From: Clostridiales bacterium
Lineage (GTDB): Bacteria > Bacillota > Clostridia > Oscillospirales > Oscillospiraceae
Length of the DNA: 43,663 bases
Assembly: GCA_021203325.1 (NCBI GenBank)
Contig: JAJQBL010000112.1
Span: forward strand, 1-43,663
Direction of reading: 5' to 3'
Part shown: positions 1,683 through 19,005 of the stretch, in pieces
How positions within the stretch are numbered: position 1 is the first letter of the stretch
Layout of the letters: each line of letters starts with the position of its first letter
Program-made: the position numbers and the translations under genes
Notes under the pieces: model-generated
The model's input: the letters and a program-made list of their open reading frames with translations, nothing else
Database searches by the model: none
Told to the model about the DNA's origin: nothing

Positions 1683-1729
1683 TGGTCCGAGTGTTGAGAT
1701 TCGAACTCAAGGCCTCTTGAACCCCATTC
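1683..1729. repeat. Left attachment site (47-bp copy of tRNA-Pro 3' end)
   Basis: Identical to 7881-7927; identity stops abruptly on both sides (T versus A after the last base, C versus T before the first). This copy has no tRNA 5' half beside it, so it is the displaced end created by integration. Confidence 0.9.
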
Positions 1730-1734
1730 TTTAC

Positions 1735-1816
1735 AAAACGCTGAGATTTCAGCGTTTTCTCAGGCTACTACCCCATTTTTACACCATCTTTTAAAATCGG
1801 GGGTGTAGTGGGGTAG
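1735..1816 (-). terminator. Integrase terminator and left arm-type repeats
   Basis: AAAACGCTGA / TCAGCGTTTT (1735-1758) is a strong hairpin downstream of the integrase on its strand. Between it and the integrase stop, CTACCCC and ACACC (from 1768) are mirrored by GGTGT and GGGGTAG (to 1816), making a larger inverted repeat. The left arm of that repeat recurs with 19 of 20 matches at 7725-7744 near the other end, in the same orientation. The site therefore may serve both termination and integrase binding. Confidence 0.55.
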
Positions 1817-1825
1817 GACAAAATG

Positions 1826-2929
1826 TCATTCTGCTTTGTTGAGTTTATCGGCTATGTCTGCCCTTCGGTTCTTGCGAATATGCGTGTAGGTATCCATAGT
1901 GACCTCGATTTTACTATGGCCCAAAAGCTGTTGTGCGTCCTTCGGTGCTATCCCGGCCTCATAGCACATGGTAGCAAAGGCGTGGCGGAGCTGATGCGGG
2001 GTGACAGACGGTTCCTTCACCAGCTTGGTGACGTTCTTCCGGCCCTCGGTGCGGGTGACTTCCTTCCACTCCCACAGGCCAGCGTCAAGACAGTAGGCCC
2101 TCCACTTCGAGCGGTACACCGACTGCGTCAAGGGCCGCTCCCCGCCGAAGATATAGGCGGCCCCCTTCTGCTGGAGGGGAAACAGCTTCGTTGCCAGCCT
2201 GTCCAGCAACACCACTTCCCTGTTCCCTGCCTCCGTCTTGGGGGATTTAATCACGGGCTGGTTGCCTGTCTCTGCGTAAGTGACGGACTTGGTGACGTGG
2301 ATAGTCTTGCCCTTAAAATCCACATCCCGCCACTGTAGGGCCAGCAGCTCCCCACGTCTCAGGCCGGTATATAGCAGCATATAGGCGAACAGGCCAAACT
2401 CATCGTCAACGTGCTGCCTGATGGCCTCCAACGCTTCATCCTCCGGGCATTCCCGTGTCCGGCTGCTCAGGCCTTTCGGGACTTTCAGCGTTGCCGCCGG
2501 GTTGTCCTGCCTGTCACCTTGTAGGACGGCATACTCAAAGATTTGATTCAGCACAGACAGGTAGATAGCTACGCTGTGGTGGGCGTACATCTGCGCCGCC
2601 ATGCGCTCCATGGACTTCTGCAAGTCGAGCGGGGTGATGTTCCTGATCGGATAGTCCCCGAACTCATCCAGCGCGCGGAGCAAGGCCGGGTTGTAGCTGA
2701 CCTGTGTGCCGGCTGCGATTTCGTTCCAGTGCTTTTCTTGCCATGCCGTTGCAACCGCTCGAAAAGGTTGACCGCTATCTTGTTTCACTTGCCATTCGAG
2801 CATTTTGCGTTTGGCTTCTTGCTGCGTCTTGCCATAGAACGATTTGCGAACTCTCTTGCCGTTCTCCACAACCGAAACCCGAATCTGAAAAAGCCCGTCT
2901 TTTCGCCTTTTTGTCTTTGCTATCGCCAT
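1826..2929 (-). CDS. int: Tyrosine recombinase (integrase)
   Basis: This 367-residue site-specific recombinase has the three-part integrase layout: a beta-rich N-terminal arm-binding domain (KDGLFQIRVSVVENGKRVRKSFYGKTQ), a SAM-like core-binding domain (about 60-150) and the catalytic domain. Counting from GTG 2938, the catalytic residues are R194 (YTGLRRGELLAL), probable K234, H315 and R318 (HQLRHAFAT), H341 (LLGHSKIEVT) and nucleophile Y351. All are present, so the enzyme should be active. ATG 2929 is chosen because AAGGAGGTG lies 7 nt upstream, whereas GTG 2938 is inside that site. It lies directly next to the left attachment site and is transcribed away from the excisionase-like gene, as in many tRNA-targeted elements. 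Confidence 0.93.
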   Translation of the reverse strand: MAIAKTKRRKDGLFQIRVSVVENGKRVRKSFYGKTQQEAKRKMLEWQVKQDSGQPFRAVATAWQEKHWNEIAAGTQVSYNPALLRALDEFGDYPIRNITPLDLQKSMERMAAQMYAHHSVAIYLSVLNQIFEYAVLQGDRQDNPAATLKVPKGLSSRTRECPEDEALEAIRQHVDDEFGLFAYMLLYTGLRRGELLALQWRDVDFKGKTIHVTKSVTYAETGNQPVIKSPKTEAGNREVVLLDRLATKLFPLQQKGAAYIFGGERPLTQSVYRSKWRAYCLDAGLWEWKEVTRTEGRKNVTKLVKEPSVTPHQLRHAFATMCYEAGIAPKDAQQLLGHSKIEVTMDTYTHIRKNRRADIADKLNKAE

Positions 2930-2938
2930 GTTCGCCAC

Positions 2939-3246
2939 CTCCTTGTGGACAGAGTACCACGGGGGGCGGCTTTTTGCAAGTTGTTTTTTTGTGCGTTTTG
3001 CGTTTGTGTGCTTCGGCGATTTTCACGAAATTGTTTTTCCCTTTTTCGATTATCTAGAAAAGTTTTGAGCTTTTAGTCAAAACTCTTTAACACAACCGCC
3101 GCTCGCCACGATAGCAAAAAAGAACAAATGTTCGTAAATTACCGTTGCAACGCTCAAAACGGGAAGTTGCAACGAAAAATTGTAAAAAATGACTAAACAA
3201 TTAGTTGACAACTACTTTCACGAACAAAAAATAAGGCTGAGGGGTA
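2939..3246. promoter_or_regulatory. AT-rich int/xis intergenic control region
   Basis: This divergent intergenic region of over 300 bp contains several dyads: GAAC-N4-GTTC (3122-3133), palindrome CGTTGCAACG (3143-3152), GTTGCAAC again (3166-3173) and TAGTT-N3-AACTA (3202-3214). It is much more AT-rich than the flanking chromosome. These are plausible operator or accessory-protein sites controlling int and xis. The only coding-like frames here read across the integrase strand and lack start signals. Confidence 0.45.
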
Positions 3247-3276
3247 TTGAAAATCCACATTGCTGTCGGCTATAAT
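3247..3276 (+). promoter_or_regulatory. Promoter of the rightward element genes
   Basis: TTGAAA (3247-3252) and TATAAT (3271-3276) are separated by 18 bp. The next start codon, at 3308, has GAAAGGAGGC upstream. This would drive the excisionase-like gene and probably the genes behind it. Confidence 0.6.
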
Positions 3277-3307
3277 TAAGACAACTTAGCGAAAGGAGGC
3301 CAAAGTT

Positions 3308-3508
3308 ATGGCCGATACCAACATGAACGCTCCCTTTCTGAGCATTTCAGACACCTGCAAGGTCACGGGCCTGTCGCAGTACGCAATTCGCAAGGGTTGC
3401 GTTGAGGGTACGATTCCCCACATCAAGAGCGGTCGGACGTATCTGATTGACGTTTCCGCCCTTTTGGAGCAGCTGCATGAGAAGGCAAGGAGCAATGCCG
3501 CTCGGTGA
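3308..3508 (+). CDS. xis: Excisionase-family DNA-binding protein
   Basis: This 66-residue protein is a winged-helix/MerR-type helix-turn-helix of the excisionase family: SISDTCKVTGLSQYAIRKGCVEG is the HTH, followed by the wing with the typical IPHIKSGRTYLIDVSALLEQL ending. Such proteins bend attachment-site DNA to favour excision, and some also regulate. It is the first gene after the control region, divergent from int, with a strong GAAAGGAGG ribosome site. The symbol is assigned by family and position; DNA binding at the ends is not shown by sequence alone. Confidence 0.8.
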   Translation: MADTNMNAPFLSISDTCKVTGLSQYAIRKGCVEGTIPHIKSGRTYLIDVSALLEQLHEKARSNAAR

Positions 3509-3517
3509 CAAAAAAAG

Positions 3518-3546
3518 AAGCCTCCCCGTTCGCCAACGGGGAGGCT
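3518..3546. terminator. GC-rich stem-loop after the excisionase-like gene
   Basis: AAGCCTCCCCGTT pairs with AACGGGGAGGCT around a CGCC loop. The T tract is on the minus strand only, so it is a good leftward terminator and, in the rightward transcript, more likely an attenuating or stabilising hairpin. The next ribosome site (AAAGGAGG) starts right after it. Confidence 0.55.
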
Positions 3547-3563
3547 CAAAGGAGGAAATGCAC

Positions 3564-3823
3564 ATGGTAGCAAAATCCTGTAGCACTGATATTGTAACAT
3601 TGTCAACAAAAAAAGTCAATGACGCCGTTGATGCTGCACGGGCCCACGCTGACAGCACCACCACGGGGGGGCGGCTACACTGAGGCCACCACAGAAGGCC
3701 ACAGCAGCGCAAACAGAGGCCAGCACGAGCGGCTGGATGATGACGATTCGCCCGAACGGAACGTTAGCCGGATTGCTCCACCCGGAAAGAGGCGGTTCCT
3801 TCATCCTGATAGGAGGGGTGTGA
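3564..3823 (+). pseudogene. Small element protein, frameshifted at a seven-G tract
   Basis: Starting at ATG 3564 (AAAGGAGG 8 nt upstream), the frame encodes MVAKSCSTDIVTLSTKKV and stops at 3683 after only 39 residues. If one base is added in the G run at 3665-3671, the frame continues ATLRPPQKATAAQTEA, then SGWMMTIRPNGTLAGLLHPE and RGGSFILIGGV, and ends at 3823, four bases before the next start. That composition is far more protein-like than the other frames, so the gene was probably about 86 residues long. The break could be mutation, slippage-based switching or a sequencing error. I do not recognise the function; position suggests a regulator or replication accessory. Confidence 0.55.
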
Positions 3824-3826
3824 ATC

Positions 3827-4504
3827 ATGGCTGAAAAGCGAATGTTTACAAAGGCTATTGTCAATTCCGCGCGATTCCTGCGAATGCCGCCTTCCTCCCG
3901 GCTGCTCTATTATGACCTCGGCATGGCTGCGGACGATGATGGATTCTGTGAAGCCTTTACTGTTATGCAGACAACCGGAGCAACGGAGGATGATCTAAAT
4001 CCGCTCGTAGACAGAAAGCTCGTCGTTATCCTAAACGATGACCTTGTCGTTTACATTGTGGACTGGAAGAGGAACAACTATATCCAGAAAGACCGGTACC
4101 ACGAAAGCATTTACCACAGCTGGCTTGAACAGCTGGAGGCTGCTTCGGTGCTGGATACAACTTGTATACAACCTGTATCCAAATTGGATACGCAGATTAG
4201 ATCAGAGAAGTCTAGTACAGGGTTAGTAAAGGGGAGAACAGTAACAGTGCAGGAAAGGGGTGCAGGGGGAAACCCACAAGCAGCTCCTTCATCCGCTGAA
4301 AGAGATGGAAAAACTGCACGTGGACAGTTTGAAAATGTTTGGCTCTCTTGGGGTGAATATGCCGCGCTCACTCTTTGCTACGATGGCGAGGAACAGGCGC
4401 AACGGGCTATTAAAGCACTATCAATCTACAAGCACGATACGGGCAAGGAGTACAGTTCGGACTATCAAGCACTGAAAGATATGGTTTCTGGGCAGCTGCC
4501 TTAG
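3827..4504 (+). CDS. Phage-type replisome organiser / replication initiator
   Basis: The first 95 residues match the N-terminal winged-helix domain of phage replisome organisers: MAEKRMFTKAIVNSARFLRM, then YYDLGMAADDDGF and DWKRNNYIQKDRYHES. After a variable linker (about 115-165), a short C-terminal helical domain (ENVWLSWGEYAALTLCYDGE) could be a DnaD-like or helicase-loader contact. Such proteins bind a replication origin and recruit host DnaB or its loader, so the element may replicate after excision. Ribosome site AGGAGGGG precedes the ATG. The long noncoding stretch with repeats downstream (5187-5598) is its likely target, by inference. The exact subfamily is unclear. Confidence 0.72.
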   Translation: MAEKRMFTKAIVNSARFLRMPPSSRLLYYDLGMAADDDGFCEAFTVMQTTGATEDDLNPLVDRKLVVILNDDLVVYIVDWKRNNYIQKDRYHESIYHSWLEQLEAASVLDTTCIQPVSKLDTQIRSEKSSTGLVKGRTVTVQERGAGGNPQAAPSSAERDGKTARGQFENVWLSWGEYAALTLCYDGEEQAQRAIKALSIYKHDTGKEYSSDYQALKDMVSGQLP

Positions 4505-4524
4505 AGGCTCCCAGAGCGGCTTTT

Positions 4525-4567
4525 CACGGCGAAGGCATAAAATTTCACACCTTCGCCGTGTTTCGCC
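4525..4567 (+). terminator. Stem-loop after the replisome organiser
   Basis: CACGGCGAAGG (4525-4535) pairs with CCTTCGCCGTG (4550-4560), followed by TTTCGCC. The T tract is short, so read-through into the next gene is likely. Confidence 0.45.
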
Positions 4568-4633
4568 GTTGTGAAGCGTTGCAACGGCCTCAGGGTGAAT
4601 GGTGTTTGCTTCTCAGTCTGTGGAGATGCTACA

Positions 4634-5050
4634 ATGGGCGGTGAGGTGGTGCGAATGATGATGAAGGAGCTGTCCAAATATCAGGACACCATGCGACAGG
4701 TCGAGCGGGACAGGGGGATTCTTGAAAACCTCAGGAGCAGAGCGTCCCCCGCCTCCCCGGCGTTGACCGGCATGCCTCACGGTAACGATGTAAGCGACAA
4801 AACCGCAGCCCTTGGCGTTGAGTGCGCCGCCATGGAGGAGAGGATTAAACAGCTTCGTGAACAGGCTGAGCAGGAGCACAAGGCGTTGGAGCAGTTCATA
4901 GCTACGATTTCAGACGAGCGGGTGGCGGTGGCGGTGTCGTTGAGGTTCGTCCATGGAATGAGCTGGAAAGAGGCGGGGGAGCTGTTGAATTTTTGGGATG
5001 CCTCCGGGTGTCGTAAGATGGTTAGTCGATATTTAGCACATGGTAACTAA
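4634..5050 (+). CDS. Sigma-70 region-4-like / ArpU-like phage regulator
   Basis: The protein is mostly coiled coil (KELSKYQDTMRQVERDRG to EERIKQLREQAEQEHKALEQF), then ends in a region-4-like helix-turn-helix: DERVAVAVSLRFVHGMSWKE followed by AGELLN. This arrangement is common in small phage proteins annotated as sigma-70 family or DUF1492, which control late gene transcription. ATG 4634 has GGAG 8 nt upstream; ATG 4655, preceded by GAGGTGG, is an equally good start. The gene ends at a very strong terminator. Here it probably acts as the element's own transcription regulator. Family-level call only. Confidence 0.65.
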   Translation: MGGEVVRMMMKELSKYQDTMRQVERDRGILENLRSRASPASPALTGMPHGNDVSDKTAALGVECAAMEERIKQLREQAEQEHKALEQFIATISDERVAVAVSLRFVHGMSWKEAGELLNFWDASGCRKMVSRYLAHGN

Positions 5051-5054
5051 CCGT

Positions 5055-5104
5055 AACTGTACTTGCGGTTTTGACCCGGGGAAATAGCAAGTACAGTTTT
5101 TTTC
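5055..5104 (+). terminator. Strong intrinsic terminator
   Basis: The perfect 12-bp stem AACTGTACTTGC / GCAAGTACAGTT has a 20-nt loop and seven or more T after it. It closes the rightward element operon. Confidence 0.85.
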
Positions 5105-5428
5105 ACAAAATAACTCGAAACAGTTCAAACCAAAAAAAACAGCTTTATTTTTCGTTGAGATATGAGGGGTTTTTCCTCCATCGAGCGGGTGCAGAAAATG
5201 ACCTCTTTGGAGGGTGCAGGATGGCGCATTTTTGACCCCTATATTGCACCCGGTTGCACCTTCGAGTGTGACGCCGTACACGGCCCTCAGAGCGGCTTTT
5301 ATGGTCGGCTGGTAGTTACACCTCCTGCGGCGTTTCTCCGCTCAGACGCAAGCAGGACGGGGCGTTCTGGACCTCAGAATCAAAAATAGGCGGTACCCCC
5401 TCCCCTCCCCTTCTCTGTTCACGGACAG
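5105..5428. other. Noncoding segment with GGTGCA repeats
   Basis: No convincing gene here. GGGTGCAG occurs at 5187-5194 and 5212-5219, and the inverted form TGCACC at 5245-5250 and 5255-5260, giving two direct and two opposed copies within 75 bp. Together with the array at 5500-5598, this is a candidate protein-binding or origin region for the element. Confidence 0.4.
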
Positions 5429-5472
5429 AAACGCCCCCACAGGCTCCAAAACGGGCTGAGGGGGCGTTTTAA
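5429..5472 (+). terminator. Intrinsic terminator-like hairpin
   Basis: AAACGCCCCC(A)CAG pairs with CTG(A)GGGGGCGTTT, followed by TAAT. No obvious gene ends just before it, so it may insulate the repeat array or end an unseen small RNA. Confidence 0.55.
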
Positions 5473-5499
5473 TGCGCTATGGGCCCTTGGTACCGTTTG

Positions 5500-5598
5500 C
5501 AAAACAAACGGCGTTTCGGGGTCGGCAAACGGCGGGGAGGGGGTCTGCAAACGGCAAAACGCTGTCGGCAAACGCTCACAGGGCTGTCGGAAAACGCC
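5500..5598 (+). repeat. Iteron-like array, about 21-22 bp period
   Basis: Four 13-bp copies with consensus GTCKGCAAACGSY start at 5521, 5543, 5564 and 5586, i.e. 22, 21 and 22 bp apart (two helical turns). A degenerate fifth copy ends CAAACGGC at 5512, exactly 21 bp before the first. The regular phasing on one DNA face is typical of replication-initiator iterons or of a repressor array. It lies in a 600-bp gene-free stretch of an element that encodes a replisome organiser. Confidence 0.6.
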
Positions 5599-5656
5599 TC
5601 AGGGGAAGGGGAGGCCAGGCAGGAAAAGGGGGCGGGTTTCCCCGTCCCCCTGTGGA

Positions 5657-5926
5657 TTAGGCTTTGCCGTTGATTTCCTCCATCATCTTCACCCCAAAGG
5701 AAATGCCGTTGCAGAAGGCTTCCTCACGGGCGGCTTCCAGCGCTGCGTCCAGCAAGTCAATAAGCTGGTCGGTAACGTCCTGCGATACGTCCAGCGATTC
5801 GATCAGGGTGGACACGTCCTCATAAGCACAGTGGGCCTTGTCGGTGCGCTTGTAAATCTTGGTGAGGGGGTCGGTCTGTACCGGGTCGAATACGGAATAG
5901 GCGATAGCTTCTAAAATCTTATTCAT
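5657..5926 (-). CDS. Hypothetical element protein, 89 aa
   Basis: This acidic, helical protein of unknown family begins MNKILEAIAYSVFDPVQTDP. The middle (EDVSTLIESLDVSQDVTDQL) and end (EAAREEAFCNGISFGVKMMEE) look like small phage early proteins. It is the last gene of a three-gene leftward cluster. AAGGAG 10 nt before ATG 5926 lies over the stop of the gene before it, indicating translational coupling. No catalytic motif is visible. Confidence 0.6.
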   Translation of the reverse strand: MNKILEAIAYSVFDPVQTDPLTKIYKRTDKAHCAYEDVSTLIESLDVSQDVTDQLIDLLDAALEAAREEAFCNGISFGVKMMEEINGKA

Positions 5927-5932
5927 GGTCTT

Positions 5933-6073
5933 TTACTCCTTTTCTGTCGTGGTGTTCTGCTGGGCCTCCATGGCCTGCACAAGTTCAAGGCAGCTTCTCA
6001 GCTGCTCAGGGTTGAAGCGGCGAAGCTGCTCCAAAATCTGCCGGTCGAGTTCATCGAGTTCAATCTTGCTCAT
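5933..6073 (-). CDS. Hypothetical small element protein, 46 aa
   Basis: This short acidic protein (MSKIELDELDRQILEQLRRF onwards) is predicted to form two helices. ATG 6073 has AGAAAGGA upstream at good spacing, and its stop overlaps the ribosome site of the next gene. Unknown family. It lies within the leftward small-gene cluster, which suggests an early regulatory or anti-host role without proving one. Confidence 0.5.
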   Translation of the reverse strand: MSKIELDELDRQILEQLRRFNPEQLRSCLELVQAMEAQQNTTTEKE

Positions 6074-6192
6074 GGTCAATTCCTTTCTTGACGGCGGGGC
6101 GGCTGCATGGTAGAATATTTGCAACCGCCCCCTGTGGGTGGTTCTACTCCCCCTTGCGTGTTTGGTTTCCGGCCTCACGTAAGGGGGCTTCT

Positions 6193-6471
6193 TTACGCCA
6201 TGTTCGCCACGACAAAGCGGCGAGAGATGGTGGTCTTGGTGAACTGCCGGGCCACGTCCGGCAACGCCTTCTTGATGGCTGCGGTGTCCAGTCTGGAGGT
6301 CTTGACCGGCTTCCATGTGATGCGGTACTCCCCAGCCTGTACGGCCTCGGTGCTGCCCATGTAAGCCTTGATTTCGTCCTTGAGGGCTTCGGCCTCAGCT
6401 TCGGCCTCCTCAATCAGGGCTTGGAGCTGTCTCAGCTCACGGGCTTTCTGTTCCAGTTCGTTGGTACTCAT
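6193..6471 (-). CDS. Conserved phage-type coiled-coil protein, 92 aa
   Basis: An N-terminal coiled coil (ELEQKARELRQLQALIEEAE, continuing to residue 38) is followed by a compact domain containing MGSTEAVQAGEYRITWKPVK, then TSRLDTAAIKKALPDVARQF and a basic end. From memory, proteins of this shape occur in phage early regions next to YqaJ/RecT-type recombination genes; no such partner is present here. It is first in the leftward cluster. The AGGTAAAACATG context gives a reasonable start. Function unknown. Confidence 0.6.
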   Translation of the reverse strand: MSTNELEQKARELRQLQALIEEAEAEAEALKDEIKAYMGSTEAVQAGEYRITWKPVKTSRLDTAAIKKALPDVARQFTKTTISRRFVVANMA

Positions 6472-6712
6472 GTTTTACCTTCCTTTCTGCGTTATGTTTT
6501 GGACTTCCCCATGATGTCCTTTCCTACCAGCGTCCCCGGTGCTTGGTGCTGCCGGGGCGAGACGCGGTGTGTGGTATCCAACCGGGCGGCGCTGGTGTGT
6601 AAGTCTCCACAGAAGCGATGCTTGGTGCTTGCCGGTTCCTGTCCCCGGTGTCTGGCATCCAACCGCTCCGTACTGTGGTTCTGGGCTTCCCCTCCTGACA
6701 ATGATAGTATAG
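6472..6712. repeat. Gene-free stretch with an imperfect ~57-bp direct repeat
   Basis: Two copies about 74 bp apart (from about 6539 and 6614) share the blocks GCTTGGTGCT-GCCGG and GGYATCCAACCG. Leftward frames across it are Arg/Pro/His-rich and lack a good start, so I do not call a gene. It may be a duplicated remnant or a binding region. Confidence 0.4.
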
Positions 6713-6811
6713 CATATCGTTAGCGATATGTCTATTGGCATTTCCTACAAAGATAACGATATATTTTTGTGTATTATGTCTATTGATAACGGTAGACTTC
6801 TGTGTTATACT
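6713..6811 (+). promoter_or_regulatory. Operator and promoter of the RHH-DUF4160-DUF2442 cassette
   Basis: TTGATA (6783-6788) and TATACT (6806-6811) are separated by 17 bp. Upstream lies the palindrome CATATCG-TTAG-CGATATG (6713-6730), and TGTCTATTG is repeated at 6729-6737 and 6777-6785, the second copy overlapping the -35 box. These are likely binding sites for the ribbon-helix-helix protein encoded first in the cassette. Confidence 0.65.
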
Positions 6812-6868
6812 GTAAGCATAATGGAAGAGGTGCCGGGATTTTTCCGGCCCCCTGTGGAGGTGAAAGCA

Positions 6869-7075
6869 ATGCCAGTATCGAAGGCACAGCAGAAAGCTGT
6901 GGCAAAATACGAAAGCAAGGTATACGACAAAACGCTGATACGGATGCCGAAGGGGACGCTTGCCAGAGTAAAGGCCCACGCAACCGAGCGGGGCGAAAGC
7001 GTCAACGCCTTTGTCAACCGGGCCATAGCGGAGGCTATGGAGCGGGACGGGGAAGGAGGCTCAGATCATGCCTGA
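6869..7075 (+). CDS. Ribbon-helix-helix (Arc/CopG-like) protein
   Basis: This 68-residue protein has the RHH fold pattern: strand DKTLIRMPKGTLARVKAH, then helices ERGESVNAFVNRAIAEAMERD. Such proteins are usually antitoxins or repressors that bind palindromes as dimers. ATG 6869 is chosen over the longer frame because GGAGGTG lies just upstream and the promoter at 6783-6811 excludes earlier starts. It overlaps the DUF4160 gene by 8 bp, so translation is coupled. By position it is the probable autoregulator/antitoxin of the cassette. Confidence 0.78.
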   Translation: MPVSKAQQKAVAKYESKVYDKTLIRMPKGTLARVKAHATERGESVNAFVNRAIAEAMERDGEGGSDHA

Positions 7076-7325
7076 AATATCTCTTTTTCACGGTATACGC
7101 ATAACCATGTACTACAACGACCACAACCCGCCGCATTTTCATGCAGAGTATGCAGGACACAAGGCGTTGGTGGACGTTCTGAGCGGCTGTGTGATACGGG
7201 GTTCCCTTCCCGCTCGACAGTTGAAACTTGTGCTTGCATGGAACGAACTGCACAGGGATGAACTTATGCAGAATTGGGAGCTTGCCAGAGATGAAAAGCC
7301 CCTGAATCCTGTTTCCCCGCTCTAG
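7068..7325 (+). CDS. DUF4160 protein
   Basis: The 85-residue protein is a full-length DUF4160 member: MPEISLFHGIRITMYYNDH, then NPPHFHAEYAGHKALVDV and LAWNELHRDELMQNWELA. The His-rich NDHNPPHFHAEY segment is the family hallmark and could be a metal or catalytic centre. DUF4160 genes are typically next to DUF2442 genes and have been proposed as a toxin-antitoxin-like pair; the biochemistry is unknown to me. GAAGGAGG lies 8 nt before the ATG. Confidence 0.85.
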   Translation: MPEISLFHGIRITMYYNDHNPPHFHAEYAGHKALVDVLSGCVIRGSLPARQLKLVLAWNELHRDELMQNWELARDEKPLNPVSPL

Positions 7326-7336
7326 GAGGTGCTATA

Positions 7337-7633
7337 GTGGATTCTTACTTTCCCGCTGTGGTGCAGGCCGTTCCCGGCGAAGGCCGGACGGTGTACGCCT
7401 ATTTCTCCGATGGCAGCATCCGGCGCTATGATATGCAGCCCCATATTGACCGGGGCGGCGTGTTTGCGCCGCTGGCAGACGAAGCGTTTTTTACCGAGCG
7501 GCTCACCGTCCTGAATGATACAATCGCGTGGGACGTGTCCGGCCACTTCGACCCTACCGCCTGCATTGATATTGACCCTTTCACCGTTTACCAGTCGGAG
7601 GCCGTTGCTGACCCGCTGGAGGCCGTGTCATGA
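7337..7633 (+). CDS. DUF2442 protein
   Basis: The 98-residue protein matches DUF2442: an N-terminal beta segment (VYAYFSDGSIRRYDM), then FAPLADEAFFTERLTVLNDT and the C-terminal signature DIDPFTVY. The GTG start has AGGAGG 7 nt upstream and lies 11 bp after the DUF4160 stop. DUF2442 proteins are usual partners of DUF4160. Together with the RHH gene this forms a three-gene cargo cassette with its own promoter and terminator. Confidence 0.82.
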   Translation: MDSYFPAVVQAVPGEGRTVYAYFSDGSIRRYDMQPHIDRGGVFAPLADEAFFTERLTVLNDTIAWDVSGHFDPTACIDIDPFTVYQSEAVADPLEAVS

Positions 7634-7664
7634 ATCCGGCGTATACAACCGCATAGCAGCAAAG

Positions 7665-7700
7665 AAGGGGGAGTGCAGACAAAGCACTCCCCCTTGTTTT
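7665..7700 (+). terminator. Terminator of the RHH-DUF4160-DUF2442 cassette
   Basis: AAGGGGGAGTGC pairs perfectly with GCACTCCCCCTT around a 7-nt loop, followed by GTTTT. Confidence 0.85.
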
Positions 7701-7724
7701 ATCCCTGTATACGCCTACACCCCT

Positions 7725-7786
7725 CTACCCCATTTTTACCCCATTTATCCTGCTATTCCTTGCTAGGTTATGCTAGGATTTGCTAG
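7725..7786 (+). repeat. Right-end recombinase-type repeats
   Basis: Positions 7725-7744 match 1768-1787 in 19 of 20 bases, same orientation. Then TGCTAK (TGCTAT, TGCTAG three times) starts at 7751, 7761, 7771 and 7781, exactly one helical turn apart. The layout fits arm-type integrase sites plus a phased array for an excisionase. Role inferred. Confidence 0.6.
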
Positions 7787-7841
7787 ATGGGCGGGTTTCG
7801 ATTCTTGAACGATTGACCGCCAAAAGTGGCATAAACAAAAG

Positions 7842-7880
7842 AAAAACACGCTGAAACTTTAAGTTTCAACGTGTTTTCTT
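7842..7880 (-). terminator. Element-supplied terminator for tRNA-Pro
   Basis: A long hairpin (AAAACACG.TGAAACTT / AAGTTTCA.CGTGTTTT) with T-rich sequence on the minus strand lies directly after the tRNA 3' end. The element replaces the original terminator, which is now at 1647-1680. Confidence 0.75.
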
Positions 7881-7957
7881 TGGTCCGAGTGTTGAGATTC
7901 GAACTCAAGGCCTCTTGAACCCCATTCAAGCGCGATACCAAACTTCGCCACACCCGG
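7881..7957 (-). tRNA. tRNA-Pro (anticodon GGG)
   Basis: The 77-nt cloverleaf is complete and includes an encoded CCA end. Acceptor CCGGGTG pairs with CACTCGG with one G-U; discriminator is A73 and the first pair is C1-G72, as usual for tRNA-Pro. The anticodon stem CTTGA/TCAAG encloses the loop ATGGGGT, giving anticodon GGG for codon CCC (and CCU). The T arm is TTGAG-TTCGAAT-CTCAA. Its 3' 47 nt are the right attachment site, so the element restores a functional gene. Confidence 0.95.
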
Positions 7958-12160: not shown

Positions 12161-12734
12161 GACTTGCCTCCTCCAAAATCGCCTGGGCCTTTTTCAGTAC
12201 GTTGGCGGAATAGTGGTCGCCGTCCTCGATTCTGGCCTGAATCGCGTCCACGCAGACCTGCGCCAGCAGCCGCCGCTCAATGCCCATTTTGTCAAGCTCC
12301 TCCGGGCAGTATTGCAGCATCCGGAGCGCCGCGTCCGGATAGGAATAGATGTCCTCCGAATCCAGGGCCAGGCGAAAGGCCCGCCGGTACAGTGCGTTGG
12401 ACTGCGCCAAATCCGGCTCCGACGCGTCGAACCGGTACAAATCCCCCAGCTTGTAGGTCGCCGCAATGTCCCCGCTCATGGCGGCCTGGGCCCAGCACTT
12501 TTTTGCCATCTCCCTGTCCACCGGGACGCTGCGCCCGTAGTAATAGCAGTAGCCCAGGTTGCTGAGGGCAATCACGCTGCCCAGCTCCGCCGCCTTCCAG
12601 TACAGGCGAACCGCCGTCTCGTAGTCGCCCTGCTGATAGGCGTCCGCCCCGGCGTCCAGATACGCCATGCCCTGTTCCTCCTGTCCGGCCTCCGGGTACG
12701 CCGGGTTTGGTTCCTTCTTCTCCGGGTTGTCCAT
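12132..12734 (-). CDS. Sel1/TPR-repeat protein
   Basis: This 200-residue soluble helical-repeat protein contains Sel1-like units such as AVRLYWKAAELGSVIALSNL, MAKKCWAQAAMSGDIAATYK and NALYRRAFRLALDSED. These repeats make scaffolds for protein-protein contacts. ATG 12734 follows AGGAGG at good spacing. The N-terminal 25 residues are a hydrophilic leader with no signal peptide, indicating a cytoplasmic location. It is first in an operon with the UPF0158 gene. Confidence 0.75.
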   Translation of the reverse strand: MDNPEKKEPNPAYPEAGQEEQGMAYLDAGADAYQQGDYETAVRLYWKAAELGSVIALSNLGYCYYYGRSVPVDREMAKKCWAQAAMSGDIAATYKLGDLYRFDASEPDLAQSNALYRRAFRLALDSEDIYSYPDAALRMLQYCPEELDKMGIERRLLAQVCVDAIQARIEDGDHYSANVLKKAQAILEEASHEDQTARGD

Positions 12735-12807
12735 ATGTTTTGCCTCCTGTAAGCGCTGTGCCGGGCCAAATGCCCCACTGTGGCCCGGACAGCCTTTTGT
12801 CTTTTTT

Positions 12808-12836
12808 ATCATACCCCATCGGGCGTCAGATTGCAA
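12808..12836 (-). promoter_or_regulatory. Promoter of the Sel1-UPF0158 operon
   Basis: Leftward TTGCAA (12836-12831) and TATGAT (12813-12808) are spaced 17 bp apart. Confidence 0.6.
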
Positions 12837-12876
12837 TGTTTTGTCAGTGCCAATTCGGAGCAGGGAAGCCCCTCCC

Positions 12877-12905
12877 TTGACAGAAACAGCCATATTTGTT
12901 AAAAT
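12877..12905 (+). promoter_or_regulatory. Promoter of the DnaA-like / phosphatase pair
   Basis: TTGACA (12877-12882) and TAAAAT (12900-12905) are spaced 17 bp apart. The ATG at 12904 overlaps the -10 box, which rules it out as the start and supports ATG 12940. Confidence 0.75.
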
Positions 12906-12939
12906 GAACGAACAAATAACGGGACAGGAGGGAATCCCC

Positions 12940-13374
12940 ATGCTTTTGAGCCTTTCTTATCTGTACAGCAGCAGCTACAGCCGCCTCTGCATCGTGCGCT
13001 TTGACCTGGAGCATACGAAAGCCCCGGAGACATCCACCGCGTTTCTGCTGGCGGAGGAGTACATCGACGGCCTGATGGATGCCATCCGTCAGGGCACCTT
13101 GCAGGACTTCCGCAGGGCGCTTCTGGAACCGGATATGCTGATGCTGGACGGTGTGGACGTGGCGCTGGAGGGGAAGGACGCCACACAGCAGGAGCTTTAC
13201 TACCTCCTGCGCAAGCGGCATGAATTGAAGCGCTACACCGTTTTGTTGGCCTGTGTCAGCCCCGACCGGCTGGCGCAGCGCGCTTTTCTCCCGCAGCTGG
13301 TGGCCCTCATCCGGGACAGCCAGGTGGAGTGTCTGGATGAGGCTGCGGACGGTGGGGCAGGGGATGCCCGGTGA
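12940..13374 (+). CDS. DnaA-like AAA+ fragment without Walker A
   Basis: The 144-residue protein aligns in order with the second half of the DnaA AAA+ domain. EEYIDGLMDAIRQGTLQDFR resembles the DnaA segment before Walker B. MLMLDGVD (66-73) is Walker-B-like, GKDATQQELYYLL (78-90) matches the conserved GKxxTQxEFF stretch, and TVLLACVSPDRL matches the sensor-1 segment. There is no P-loop GxxxxGKT, no oligomerisation arginine finger region and no domain IV for DnaA-box binding. It may bind or titrate DnaA rather than hydrolyse ATP. It starts 12 nt or less after GGAGGG and is followed 18 bp later by the phosphatase gene. Homology is from motif order only. Confidence 0.6.
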   Translation: MLLSLSYLYSSSYSRLCIVRFDLEHTKAPETSTAFLLAEEYIDGLMDAIRQGTLQDFRRALLEPDMLMLDGVDVALEGKDATQQELYYLLRKRHELKRYTVLLACVSPDRLAQRAFLPQLVALIRDSQVECLDEAADGGAGDAR

Positions 13375-13392
13375 AGGGAAGGGGGACGCTCT

Positions 13393-14088
13393 GTGTACTA
13401 TTGCTGCTCAGACCTCCACGGCTGTTATGACCGGTATCGGCAGCTGCTGGCAGAGATCGACCTGCGGGACGAGGACACCCTCTTTGTCCTGGGGGACGTG
13501 GTGGACCGGGGGCCGCAGACCATGGAGCTGCTCCTGGACATGATGGAGCGCTTCAATGTCATCCCCATCCTGGGCAATCACGAGTATATGGCGATTCAGG
13601 TGCTGGGGGGCCTCCTGAAAGAGGTGACGGAGGAGAACCTGCCGGGCTTTGGCGACACGGTAGAGCAGCTGTCCCACTGGGTCAACGACGGCGGCAGGGA
13701 GACCCTGACGGCCTTTCAGCGGCTGGACCGGGAGCAGCAGGACGCCGTGCTGGACTACCTGACGGAGTTCTCCCTCTACGAGGAGCTGGAGGTGGGCGGC
13801 AGGTCCTTCGTGCTGGTCCACGCCGGGCTGATGCATTTTTCCGAAGGGCGTCCTCTGGAGGATTACGCACCCCACGAGCTGATTTTTGAACAGGCCGACT
13901 ATGGCCGCCGGTACTTCTCCCGCCGGACGCTGGTGACCGGGCACACCCCCACCCGGCTGATCGGAGAAAACCCCCGGCCGGACCGCATCTATCGGAACCT
14001 GGGCCACATCGCGCTGGACTGCGGCCGTGTCTACGGCGGACTGCTGGGGGCGATCTGCCTGGACACGGGGGAGGAATTTTATGTGTGA
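13393..14088 (+). CDS. Metallophosphoesterase, PrpA/ApaH-like protein phosphatase
   Basis: The 231-residue calcineurin-like phosphoesterase has all metal-site motifs: SDLHG (D7, H9), GDVVDRG (D35, D38), GNHE (61-64), LVHAG and TGHTPT. This pattern is shared by bacterial PP1-like serine/threonine phosphatases and symmetrical Ap4A hydrolases, and I cannot decide between them. GTG 13393 has AAGGGAAGGGGG upstream. The gene is co-directional with, and close to, the DnaA-like gene, so both probably share the promoter at 12877-12905. Confidence 0.88.
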   Translation: MYYCCSDLHGCYDRYRQLLAEIDLRDEDTLFVLGDVVDRGPQTMELLLDMMERFNVIPILGNHEYMAIQVLGGLLKEVTEENLPGFGDTVEQLSHWVNDGGRETLTAFQRLDREQQDAVLDYLTEFSLYEELEVGGRSFVLVHAGLMHFSEGRPLEDYAPHELIFEQADYGRRYFSRRTLVTGHTPTRLIGENPRPDRIYRNLGHIALDCGRVYGGLLGAICLDTGEEFYV

Positions 14089-14497
14089 GGGTTGGGGCCG
14101 GTTTTTCGGATGAAAATGGAGTGACAAGGAAGAAGCCTTGACACCAATACAGCCTGACCGATGACAGAAAAAGGCGGCGGAGCGGGGCGAAGGCCCGGCC
14201 CTGCCGCCTTCCATTCTGCGGCCGGCACAGGGAAACTAAAATTCGTTTTCACATAAAAACCAAAATATTCCAATTACTGAAATAAATTGTGAGAACGCCA
14301 AACTGATAGCTATTATAAGCAGTTCTTACGCCGAAATACGCCGCCGTCCCCCTGCAACCGGGCGAAATTGTAAACGAAATGTAAAGCATTTGCGGGACGC
14401 CTTCCTTTTTCCGCTTCCGCGCTGTATAATGATTCCGGTTCCGGGGCTGCGCCCGCCGGACATGGCGCAGGCCGGAGCGGAAAGGGAAGGGTTCAAA
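14089..14497. other. Intergenic stretch with stem-loop
   Basis: A stem AAGGCGGC / GCCGCCTT (14171-14210) lies after the phosphatase stop; the T tract is poor. An AT-rich stretch of about 80 bp follows, and TATAAT (14425-14430) precedes the lipoprotein gene, with only a weak -35 (TTCCTT, 17 bp upstream). No gene seen. Confidence 0.45.
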
Positions 14498-18399: not shown

Positions 18400-19005
18400 T
18401 TATCTGCCGCGAATCAGCAGGGTCTGCTTACAGCAGAGGTCGCTCAGGTCGTCCATGGTGGCGGCGGGCAGGTGGAGGGCGCTGCCGCAGCTGCCGCAAA
18501 CCACCTCGATGGCGGAGTAGTGGAGCTTCAGCTGCCAATCCCTGCTGCCGCAGGTGCAGGAGATGCCGCCCCGCTGGGCGATGTCCTTCAGCTCGTCCAG
18601 CATCTCCGTCATGACCACCTCGTTCAGGAAGGAGCCCTGGGCGTCTTTGGCCTCCTCCAGCTGGTCCGTGCGGGCCTCCAGCCGGGTCAGGGCCTGGTAG
18701 ACGACGCCCTCCTCCCCCACATAGCAGCAGTCCAGCCCCGTTTTTCTGCAGGAAAAGGCCATGCCCCGGCGGGTGCGGAGGTCCCTGGCGGAGCAGTAAA
18801 CCGTGTGGTTGCTGCCGCAGACCACACAGGGGGCGTTCAGCTTGAACTGGTCGCCGGTATACTCGATGATGAGCCGGGAGCCGCCGCAGGGACAGGGGAT
18901 CACCACGGGGGCGGAAGTCAGCGTAAACAGATCCTTGTCCACCACAACGCTGTTGTGGCACTTGGGGCAGATATAACCGATGGTGCGGCGTTCCTCCAAA
19001 TCCAT
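18400..19005 (-). CDS. Multi-zinc-ribbon hypothetical protein
   Basis: The 201-residue protein is unusually rich in paired cysteines: YICPKCHN, IPCPCGGSR, PCVVCGSNH, LDCCYVG, SCTCGSRD and VVCGSCGS. This suggests two or more zinc ribbons at the N-terminus and one at the C-terminus, with a helical middle (about 110-150) that is acidic. ATG 19005 lies 10 nt after GGAGG. I do not recognise a named family. Neighbours are guaB downstream and divergent spoVAD, which do not fix a role. Nucleic-acid binding or metal-dependent regulation is possible. Confidence 0.65.
   Translation of the reverse strand: MDLEERRTIGYICPKCHNSVVVDKDLFTLTSAPVVIPCPCGGSRLIIEYTGDQFKLNAPCVVCGSNHTVYCSARDLRTRRGMAFSCRKTGLDCCYVGEEGVVYQALTRLEARTDQLEEAKDAQGSFLNEVVMTEMLDELKDIAQRGGISCTCGSRDWQLKLHYSAIEVVCGSCGSALHLPAATMDDLSDLCCKQTLLIRGR

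Follow-up and report, generated by a model that had tools for sequence, protein, structure and literature searches.

The described systems closest in design to the element reported here are the phage-inducible chromosomal minimalist islands (PICMIs) of the Vibrionaceae, which PMC10803314 presents as 6.1 kb long, devoid of a terminase gene and packaged as concatemers, and the phage-inducible chromosomal islands (PICIs) of Gram-positive bacteria, whose origin is the region 3' of the initiator according to PMC6092414. The Gram-positive PICI criteria used below are as listed there. Further points of reference are the Per origin of phage Sfi21, a noncoding phage origin protecting cells as described in PMC6356513, and dhiTA (DUF4160/DUF2442), an experimentally shown toxin-antitoxin system with tests in Dickeya and E. 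coli (PMC8198452). Against this background we analyzed a window of 43,663 nucleotides, the whole stretch of DNA considered here (contig JAJQBL010000112.1, assembly GCA_021203325.1, Clostridiales bacterium), in which a 6,198-bp insert lies at the 3' end of tRNA-Pro(GGG). We read this insert, with a rough probability of 0.55, as a minimal phage satellite integrating in tRNA genes. The main new finding, made by sequence comparison, is a repeat array common to the element and a resident prophage.

The satellite reading is favored by a discrete insert with perfect att repeats, a restored tRNA, integrase and replication genes, and the absence of structural genes, and additionally by the presence of the same lineage in another tRNA gene of a sister species. 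The att repeats are 47 nt long, 100% identical (1683-1729 and 7881-7927) and spaced 6198 nt apart, which bears out the sequence-only reading in its description of a compact element at tRNA-Pro with 47-bp perfect repeats. Judged by its sequence, the element is discrete, mobile and compact, its mobility being deduced from a relative at tRNA-Ala in a sister species where the corresponding locus of the source genome is unoccupied.

The repeat array lies in a convergent noncoding stretch with conserved blocks, 5051-5656, between the gene ends at 5050 and 5657. The features of this stretch, in window coordinates, are:

5275-5410, no strand assigned: conserved noncoding block 1, with 93% identity to the tRNA-Ala relative across the best 133 nt, nearby genes being more diverged
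5410-5475, no strand assigned: strong hairpin, probably a two-way terminator (z -4.2; 0/200 shuffles fold as well)
5494-5596, minus strand: repeat array of four 11-mers like CGTTTGCCGAC, then the inverted repeat CGTTTGTTTTGCAAACG, common to prophage C4 and the relative

The array was first sighted as a 40-nt, 85% BLAST match to C4, a contig of the source genome on which it is intergenic (18577-18690) and follows the same plan, its 11-mers being spaced 21, 22, 21 and 21 nt apart as against 22, 21 and 22 nt in the element. The local alignment score between the two arrays is 56, the best of 2 x 2000 dinucleotide shuffles being 31 and 35, and a chain of four 11-mer units at 20-23 nt is found in the element, in C4 and in the relative but in none of 300 shuffles of each. 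At up to three mismatches, the core array pattern occurs in one of 400 sampled family genomes, namely the source genome, at the element and C4 only, and in two of 32 genomes of the genus, the second adding a single occurrence in the element of the sister species G312; as the pattern was built from the known places and has zero mismatches there by construction, only its absence elsewhere is informative. The 400 family genomes include ten of the genus other than G312, which is covered by the genus scan.

Because it sits between convergent gene ends, the array probably does not serve either neighbor as an operator. Further, the replication genes of the window's element and of the G312 relative show no BLASTP match at 1e-3, and that of the relative has its own repeats directly 3' (an 11-mer occurring 7 times at 11-nt intervals). 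That the relative keeps the array despite a different replication gene with its own repeats suggests that the reader of the array is other than the island's own initiator. In the same region of the relative (locus L058, 8633-8874), long iteron-like arrays with 11-nt and 10-nt periods were observed directly 3' of the replication gene. Another contig of the source genome, C44 (locus L066, 2733-3636), carries an analogous array of other sequence (CGTGCAATCGGTGGACG type), with three copies at 32 nt and a final inverted repeat; by eye, a CCCCCTCC stretch is common to the element and C44 arrays. This array is directly 3' of a replication gene (DUF6291 + DnaB_2) and is followed by two genes like those adjoining the C4 array, and its placement after a replication gene makes such arrays resemble origins. 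We weigh an origin-type site at about one half.

About one fifth goes to the alternative in which the array represents a packaging site (cos or pac) taken over from the helper, whose terminase would then package the element as in satellites lacking TerS. The element has no TerS, the palindrome and repeats could be regarded as cos-like in outline, and EcCICFT073, itself without TerS, has cos sites identical to those of its helper (PMC6092414). However, the C44 array directly follows a replication gene, and no array was found in viral_contigs by exact-pattern scan. Further, in C4 about 4.3 kb separate the array from terS, contrary to the usual pac site. The C4 TerL relatives are presumably headful phages, which likewise speaks against the packaging alternative.

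Several candidate functions for the conserved noncoding sequence were tried and rejected. A structured RNA in block 1 folds no better than shuffles (z 0.49 on the plus and 1.98 on the minus strand), and an Rfam scan returned a tRNA and two matches below gathering scores only. Protein coding was dropped as the frames are broken by single-base gaps relative to the G312 element, and a cos site in block 1 was dropped as its exact patterns are absent from viral_contigs. A codon run at the C-terminal end of a sigma-like protein of phage L087 resembles block 1 (4 mismatches in 22) and was set aside as lying inside a gene. Within the genus, block 1 turned up only in the source genome and G312, plus two short matches at E 0.02-0.04.

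The prophage on C4 encodes both terminase subunits (TerS, 13864-14232; TerL, 12593-13867) and a set of structural proteins comprising the portal, minor head, scaffold, major head, connectors and major tail protein. It also has an ArpU-like gene (phrog_36, 4.5e-25), Sak4-like, primase, primase/helicase and VRR-NUC (Pfam, 8.1e-14) genes, and an anti-repressor, a repressor-type regulator and an integrase. Left of the major tail protein, two glycosyltransferase genes stand in place of tape measure or lysis genes, and C4 hence appears incomplete on its contig. A second TerL of the source genome is on contig C39.

A number of observations weigh against the satellite reading or its link to C4. C4 may not be a working helper, and G312 has the element with no second array copy, which points to the lack of a resident helper in that genome. 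Other repeats lie directly after the helicase gene in C4 and three related phages, and the main phage origin may therefore not be the array; the model of the array as a C4-type phage origin is weakened to that extent. In viral_contigs the element itself was not found, the top integrase there being 60-62% identical, and family scans of the element's open reading frames (ORFs) found neither a repressor nor a terminase small subunit.

For the satellite reading we propose the following mechanism. The integrase and the excisionase-like protein would cut the element out as a circle, and the element would replicate from the 11-nt repeats inside its DnaD-like replication gene. The array at 5494-5596 would be read by a phage-supplied factor, with an origin-type site favored and a packaging site as the alternative, and the helper phage would thereby amplify or package the element. 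With no terminase gene of its own found, packaging would depend on the helper's machinery, while the dhiTA-type pair could stabilize the element between phage visits. A more specific version, which we put forward only tentatively and regard as doubtful, is that the array is a decoy: a copied helper origin-type site beside the element's own origin would draw the phage replication factor, amplifying the island and starving the phage in a Per-like DNA interference, with moves between tRNA-Pro and tRNA-Ala enabled by the common anticodon stem CTTGA/TCAAG. If the element is a satellite, its 6.2 kb would be near the known lower size limit, and the literature listings available under Clostridia/Clostridium terms describe no phage satellites in this bacterial family. 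An array common to an island and a prophage would provide a concrete handle on helper recognition by minimal islands, and the analogous but different C44 array in the same genome suggests a set of matched signals.

The boundaries of the element are defined by the following features:

1683-1729, minus strand: att copy at the far end, a duplicate of the tRNA-Pro 3' part (repeat comparison)
1769-1787, plus strand: candidate integrase arm site TACCCCATTTTTACACCAT, identified by eye, 18/19 identical to 7726-7744
7726-7744, plus strand: candidate integrase arm site TACCCCATTTTTACCCCAT, identified by eye
7842-7878, minus strand: terminator-like hairpin, supplied by the element to tRNA-Pro
7881-7957, minus strand: tRNA-Pro(GGG), with the second att copy in its 3' 47 nt (7881-7927) (ARAGORN and repeat comparison)

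This tRNA-Pro(ggg) is the sole tRNA that ARAGORN reports in the window, and as the att repeat corresponds to its 3' part, starting at the anticodon loop, the tRNA gene stays whole. The candidate arm-site motif also occurs in the right-end remnant of locus L057. To the left of the element, phage DNA sits outside the repeat, where the view ends at contig position 1; on this contig, then, the element does not form the core of a longer prophage, whose discovery the sequence-only reading had named as a threat to its own proposal. Within this flank, a head-gene fragment at 23-622 matches the C4 minor head protein over 59 residues at 91.5% identity. The segment 23-1422 as a whole consists of the end of a minor-head gene with a variable C-terminal part followed by a BrnT/BrnA pair, and repeat-flanked pieces like it are seen in several genomes of the genus. 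We take it to resemble a polymorphic-toxin cassette of phage head proteins.

The relative in G312 (locus L058) is at tRNA-Ala(GGC), between identical 48-nt repeats (6115-6162 and 12541-12588, spacing 6426). Its integrase matches that of the window at 96.9% over 165 and 94.3% over 194 residues, in two pieces owing to a broken frame, and its other proteins range from near identity to marked divergence (DhiT 100%, DhiA 97.9%, regulator 59.2%, excisionase-like protein 56.1%, Gp157-like protein 40.6%). The unoccupied tRNA-Ala locus of the source genome (L070) has flanks 94.4% identical over 1,029 nt and 93.1% over 2,631 nt to those in G312; beside the insert the two sequences do not agree base for base, differing in about 150 nt on the G312 side and in about 100 nt on that of the source genome. 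About 48 nt adjoining the source genome's tRNA-Ala are similar to the right end of the element; this similarity may be the trace of an earlier occupant, or the element may have taken its terminator from such a locus.

Relatives with and without the element were likewise anticipated by the sequence-only reading, and both were encountered: none of the five sister tRNA-Pro(GGG) loci read (L057, L059-L062) holds the element, a count resting on these five loci while further genomes of the genus also match the tRNA region, while one sister species has a relative at tRNA-Ala and another a rearranged remnant. The tRNA-Pro(GGG) locus of G312 retains 154 nt of the element's right end, and that of G304 was read 1.6 kb past the tRNA only. 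As the window's left flank is not common to the sister tRNA-Pro loci, a base-by-base rebuild of the empty site is not possible. In G304 the tRNA-Ala region is rearranged and contains an integrase (94-95%) truncated at its 5' end; at this locus (L103, G304:C109, 190-5692) the 48-nt core adjoins the truncated integrase, oriented opposite to the tRNA, in what appears as a rearranged tRNA-Ala remnant. One integrase lineage thus uses two tRNA genes, both with the anticodon stem CTTGA/TCAAG and with differing loops, and from these sequences the common stem is a plausible basis for the tRNA-Pro/tRNA-Ala switch. Integrases at least 94% identical are found in three genomes of the genus (the window's, G304 and G312). 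In the family the integrase is rare, with matches at E 1e-60 in 9/400 sampled genomes, seven of them beyond the genus at 37-47% identity. Multi-genome searches score few candidates per genome, and absences in some of them are therefore soft. What survives of the earlier suggestion of a new satellite family is therefore this small lineage, rather than a broader family.

The same comparisons bear on the view that the element is a prophage deletion remnant, that is, the decaying early region of a tRNA-Pro phage that has lost its structural genes, which we consider decidedly improbable. The phage-type order of integrase, excisionase-like, replication and regulator genes would fit such an origin, as would the lack of any remaining repressor, the rearranged remnant in G304 and the broken integrase frame in G312. 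Further, the IMG/VR temperate-phage contigs L087/L088, with a partial TerL and a CI-like repressor, encode a 60-62% identical integrase and carry the same tRNA-Pro core (47-48 nt) at the contig end; being identical to each other over 11,246 nt, they are counted as one phage. However, two species share the compact plan (6.2 and 6.4 kb), each at a different tRNA gene, with the replication gene swapped and perfect repeats at both, and selection is indicated by the conserved noncoding blocks and the near-identical toxin-antitoxin genes. Additionally, the window's own genes are open, and no structural genes or fragments were convincingly matched within the att repeats, the head-gene fragment at 23-622 being outside.

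Returning to the element itself, the order within the repeats is a leftward integrase, then rightward excisionase-like, DnaD-like loader and ArpU/sigma-like genes, the roughly 600-nt noncoding stretch between convergent genes, three leftward small genes (DUF6809, a 46-aa ORF and Gp157-like), and a rightward RHH gene with the DUF4160/DUF2442 pair:

1826-2938, minus strand: tyrosine integrase (Phage_integrase 7.6e-21; phrog_1 3.7e-69)
3308-3508, plus strand: excisionase-like helix-turn-helix (HTH) protein (HTH_17 E 9.3e-6 and TIGR01764 E 3e-5, both just below curated cut-offs)
3827-4504, plus strand: DnaD-like helicase loader / replisome organiser (phrog_8489 6.1e-40; no Pfam match)
4151-4194, plus strand: candidate own origin, formed by four repeats within the replication gene that have an exact 11-nt period
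4571-5050, plus strand, an ATG start also being possible at 4658: ArpU/sigma-like phage regulator (phrog_36 9.8e-11; Pfam sigma matches below cut-off)
5657-5926, minus strand: DUF6809 protein (PF20648 6.1e-7)
5933-6073, minus strand: 46-aa ORF, without convincing family match
6193-6471, minus strand: Gp157-like coiled protein (phrog_434 3.3e-16; Pfam Gp157 E 0.0019, below cut-off)
6869-7075, plus strand: Arc/RHH-like DNA-binding protein (phrog_13890 4.9e-18; Pfam Arc E 5.7e-4, just below cut-off)
7068-7325, plus strand: DUF4160, DhiT-type toxin (PF13711 5.3e-25; NF048015 80.4 bits against a cut-off of 100)
7337-7633, plus strand: DUF2442, DhiA-type antitoxin (PF10387 2.3e-5)

Family scans agree with the earlier inventory of int, a xis-like gene, a replisome organiser, a sigma-like gene and small genes with no structural or conjugation gene. 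On the scanned ORFs of the element no structural, lysis, relaxase or secretion family gave a convincing score, a mobilization origin not having been searched for, and no primase homolog was found. The weak contrary matches are a terminase-small-subunit profile on the excisionase-like HTH protein (phrog_57, E 0.0032), minor-tail and TraJ profiles on the Gp157-like protein (phrog_2325, E 0.0065; TIGR03782, E 0.094) and a tape-measure profile on the ArpU/sigma-like regulator (phrog_10574, E 0.087). As for defense families, the 2023 PADLOC library gave only an HTH match (mad1, E 2.6e-4) and a coiled-coil match (E 0.0024), the PADLOC and NCBIfam scans having been run without the RHH protein at 6869-7075 in frame. 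No DUF6809 relatives were found in viral_contigs. The proposal of helper interference by the leftward genes at 5657-6471 is not supported: these genes have no convincing match in that library, the Gp157-like gene is also present in elements that replicate by other systems, and the phage-tied feature is the array instead. Through the array the satellite reading gains a link to a resident prophage that the earlier account did not have. The noncoding stretch at 5051-5656, the dhiTA-type pair and the phage-derived left flank are observations beyond that earlier account.

The distribution of the small genes in other elements of the genus is instructive in this regard. Near tRNA-Leu, L120 (9671-17951) carries the same RHH, Gp157-like and dhiTA cassette together with a rolling-circle-type initiator, no end repeats having been found, and the cassette, occurring in elements of different replication types, is hence not tied to helper interference. 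Also near tRNA-Leu, L119 (4176-11395) has a 24-nt direct repeat whose copies are 7.2 kb apart, and its similarity to the Gp157-like and RHH genes is seen at the DNA level only. A clearer PICI-like element is L111 (G311:C67, 4481-12555), with an integrase, a repressor, a DnaD-like loader, an ArpU-like gene and TerS in about 8 kb and with imperfect end repeats (44 nt, 75%). L112 (G314:C58) is similarly PICI-like, with a DnaD-like loader and an ArpU-like gene, and the loaders of both are 42-43% identical to that of the window. Loci L104-L110 were covered by BLAST against the window and a tRNA scan only.

This cassette lends some weight to a different interpretation, namely a small integrative replicon of the genomic-island or integrative-plasmid type that can excise and replicate but would move outside phage particles, by natural transformation or by mobilization in trans through another element, its array being a replication or partition site shared by recombination. 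It would account for the lack of a packaging gene, for a toxin-antitoxin pair and RHH protein as found on plasmids, for the cassette's recurrence beside a rolling-circle-type initiator and for the origin-like position of the C44 array. We nevertheless think it unlikely, as phage families are matched by both the replication protein and the regulator, a prophage shares the array, and no relaxase or secretion family was matched convincingly.

The satellite reading may finally be set against the known systems introduced above. Unlike integrative conjugative or mobilizable elements, the element has no convincing relaxase or transfer match on its scanned ORFs, a search that did not extend to a mobilization origin. 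Like dhiTA, it has a DUF4160 toxin gene followed by a DUF2442 antitoxin gene, but its DhiT scores below the NCBIfam equivalog cut-off. It shares with L111/L112 the DnaD-like loader (42% by BLASTP), an ArpU-like regulator (26%), a Gp157-like protein and the RHH gene (identified in L112), whereas these differ in having another integrase, a repressor (family match tested in L111), TerS in L111, a size of about 8 kb and another site. The original study of Sfi21 Per reportedly demonstrated its effect on plasmids and in prophages of Streptococcus thermophilus. The array resembles Per as noncoding, origin-like DNA able to draw on an invading phage's replication proteins, which here is an architectural parallel only.

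As in Gram-positive PICIs, there are an integrase, flanking att repeats, an excisionase-like gene and a replication gene with repeats, and no phage structural or lytic genes, with weak contrary matches only. Unlike them, it has no master repressor (rpr/stl) divergent from xis on the ORFs scanned, and its 6,198 bp contrast with around 15 kb. Where PICIs have xis and pri/rep followed by an origin, it has a xis-like gene and a DnaD-like loader with no primase, its repeats being inside the gene and 1 kb downstream. PICI att sites are never used by prophages, whereas the element's core is common to the temperate-phage contigs L087/L088, and where a PICI has its own terS or a helper pac/cos site, it has no TerS and an array common to C4 that may be such a site. 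The likeness to PICMI is in the scale of about 6.1 kb and in the presence of excision and replication genes only, with no capsid-remodelling or terminase gene. PICMI differs in residing at the end of fis, in serving a virulent Vibrio phage and in having its packaging shown, while the element is at tRNA-Pro or tRNA-Ala. PICMI depends on its helper for packaging, as the element would. Our best reading is a minimal phage satellite close in design to both PICMI and PICI, which departs from several PICI criteria and is not classed as a PICI.

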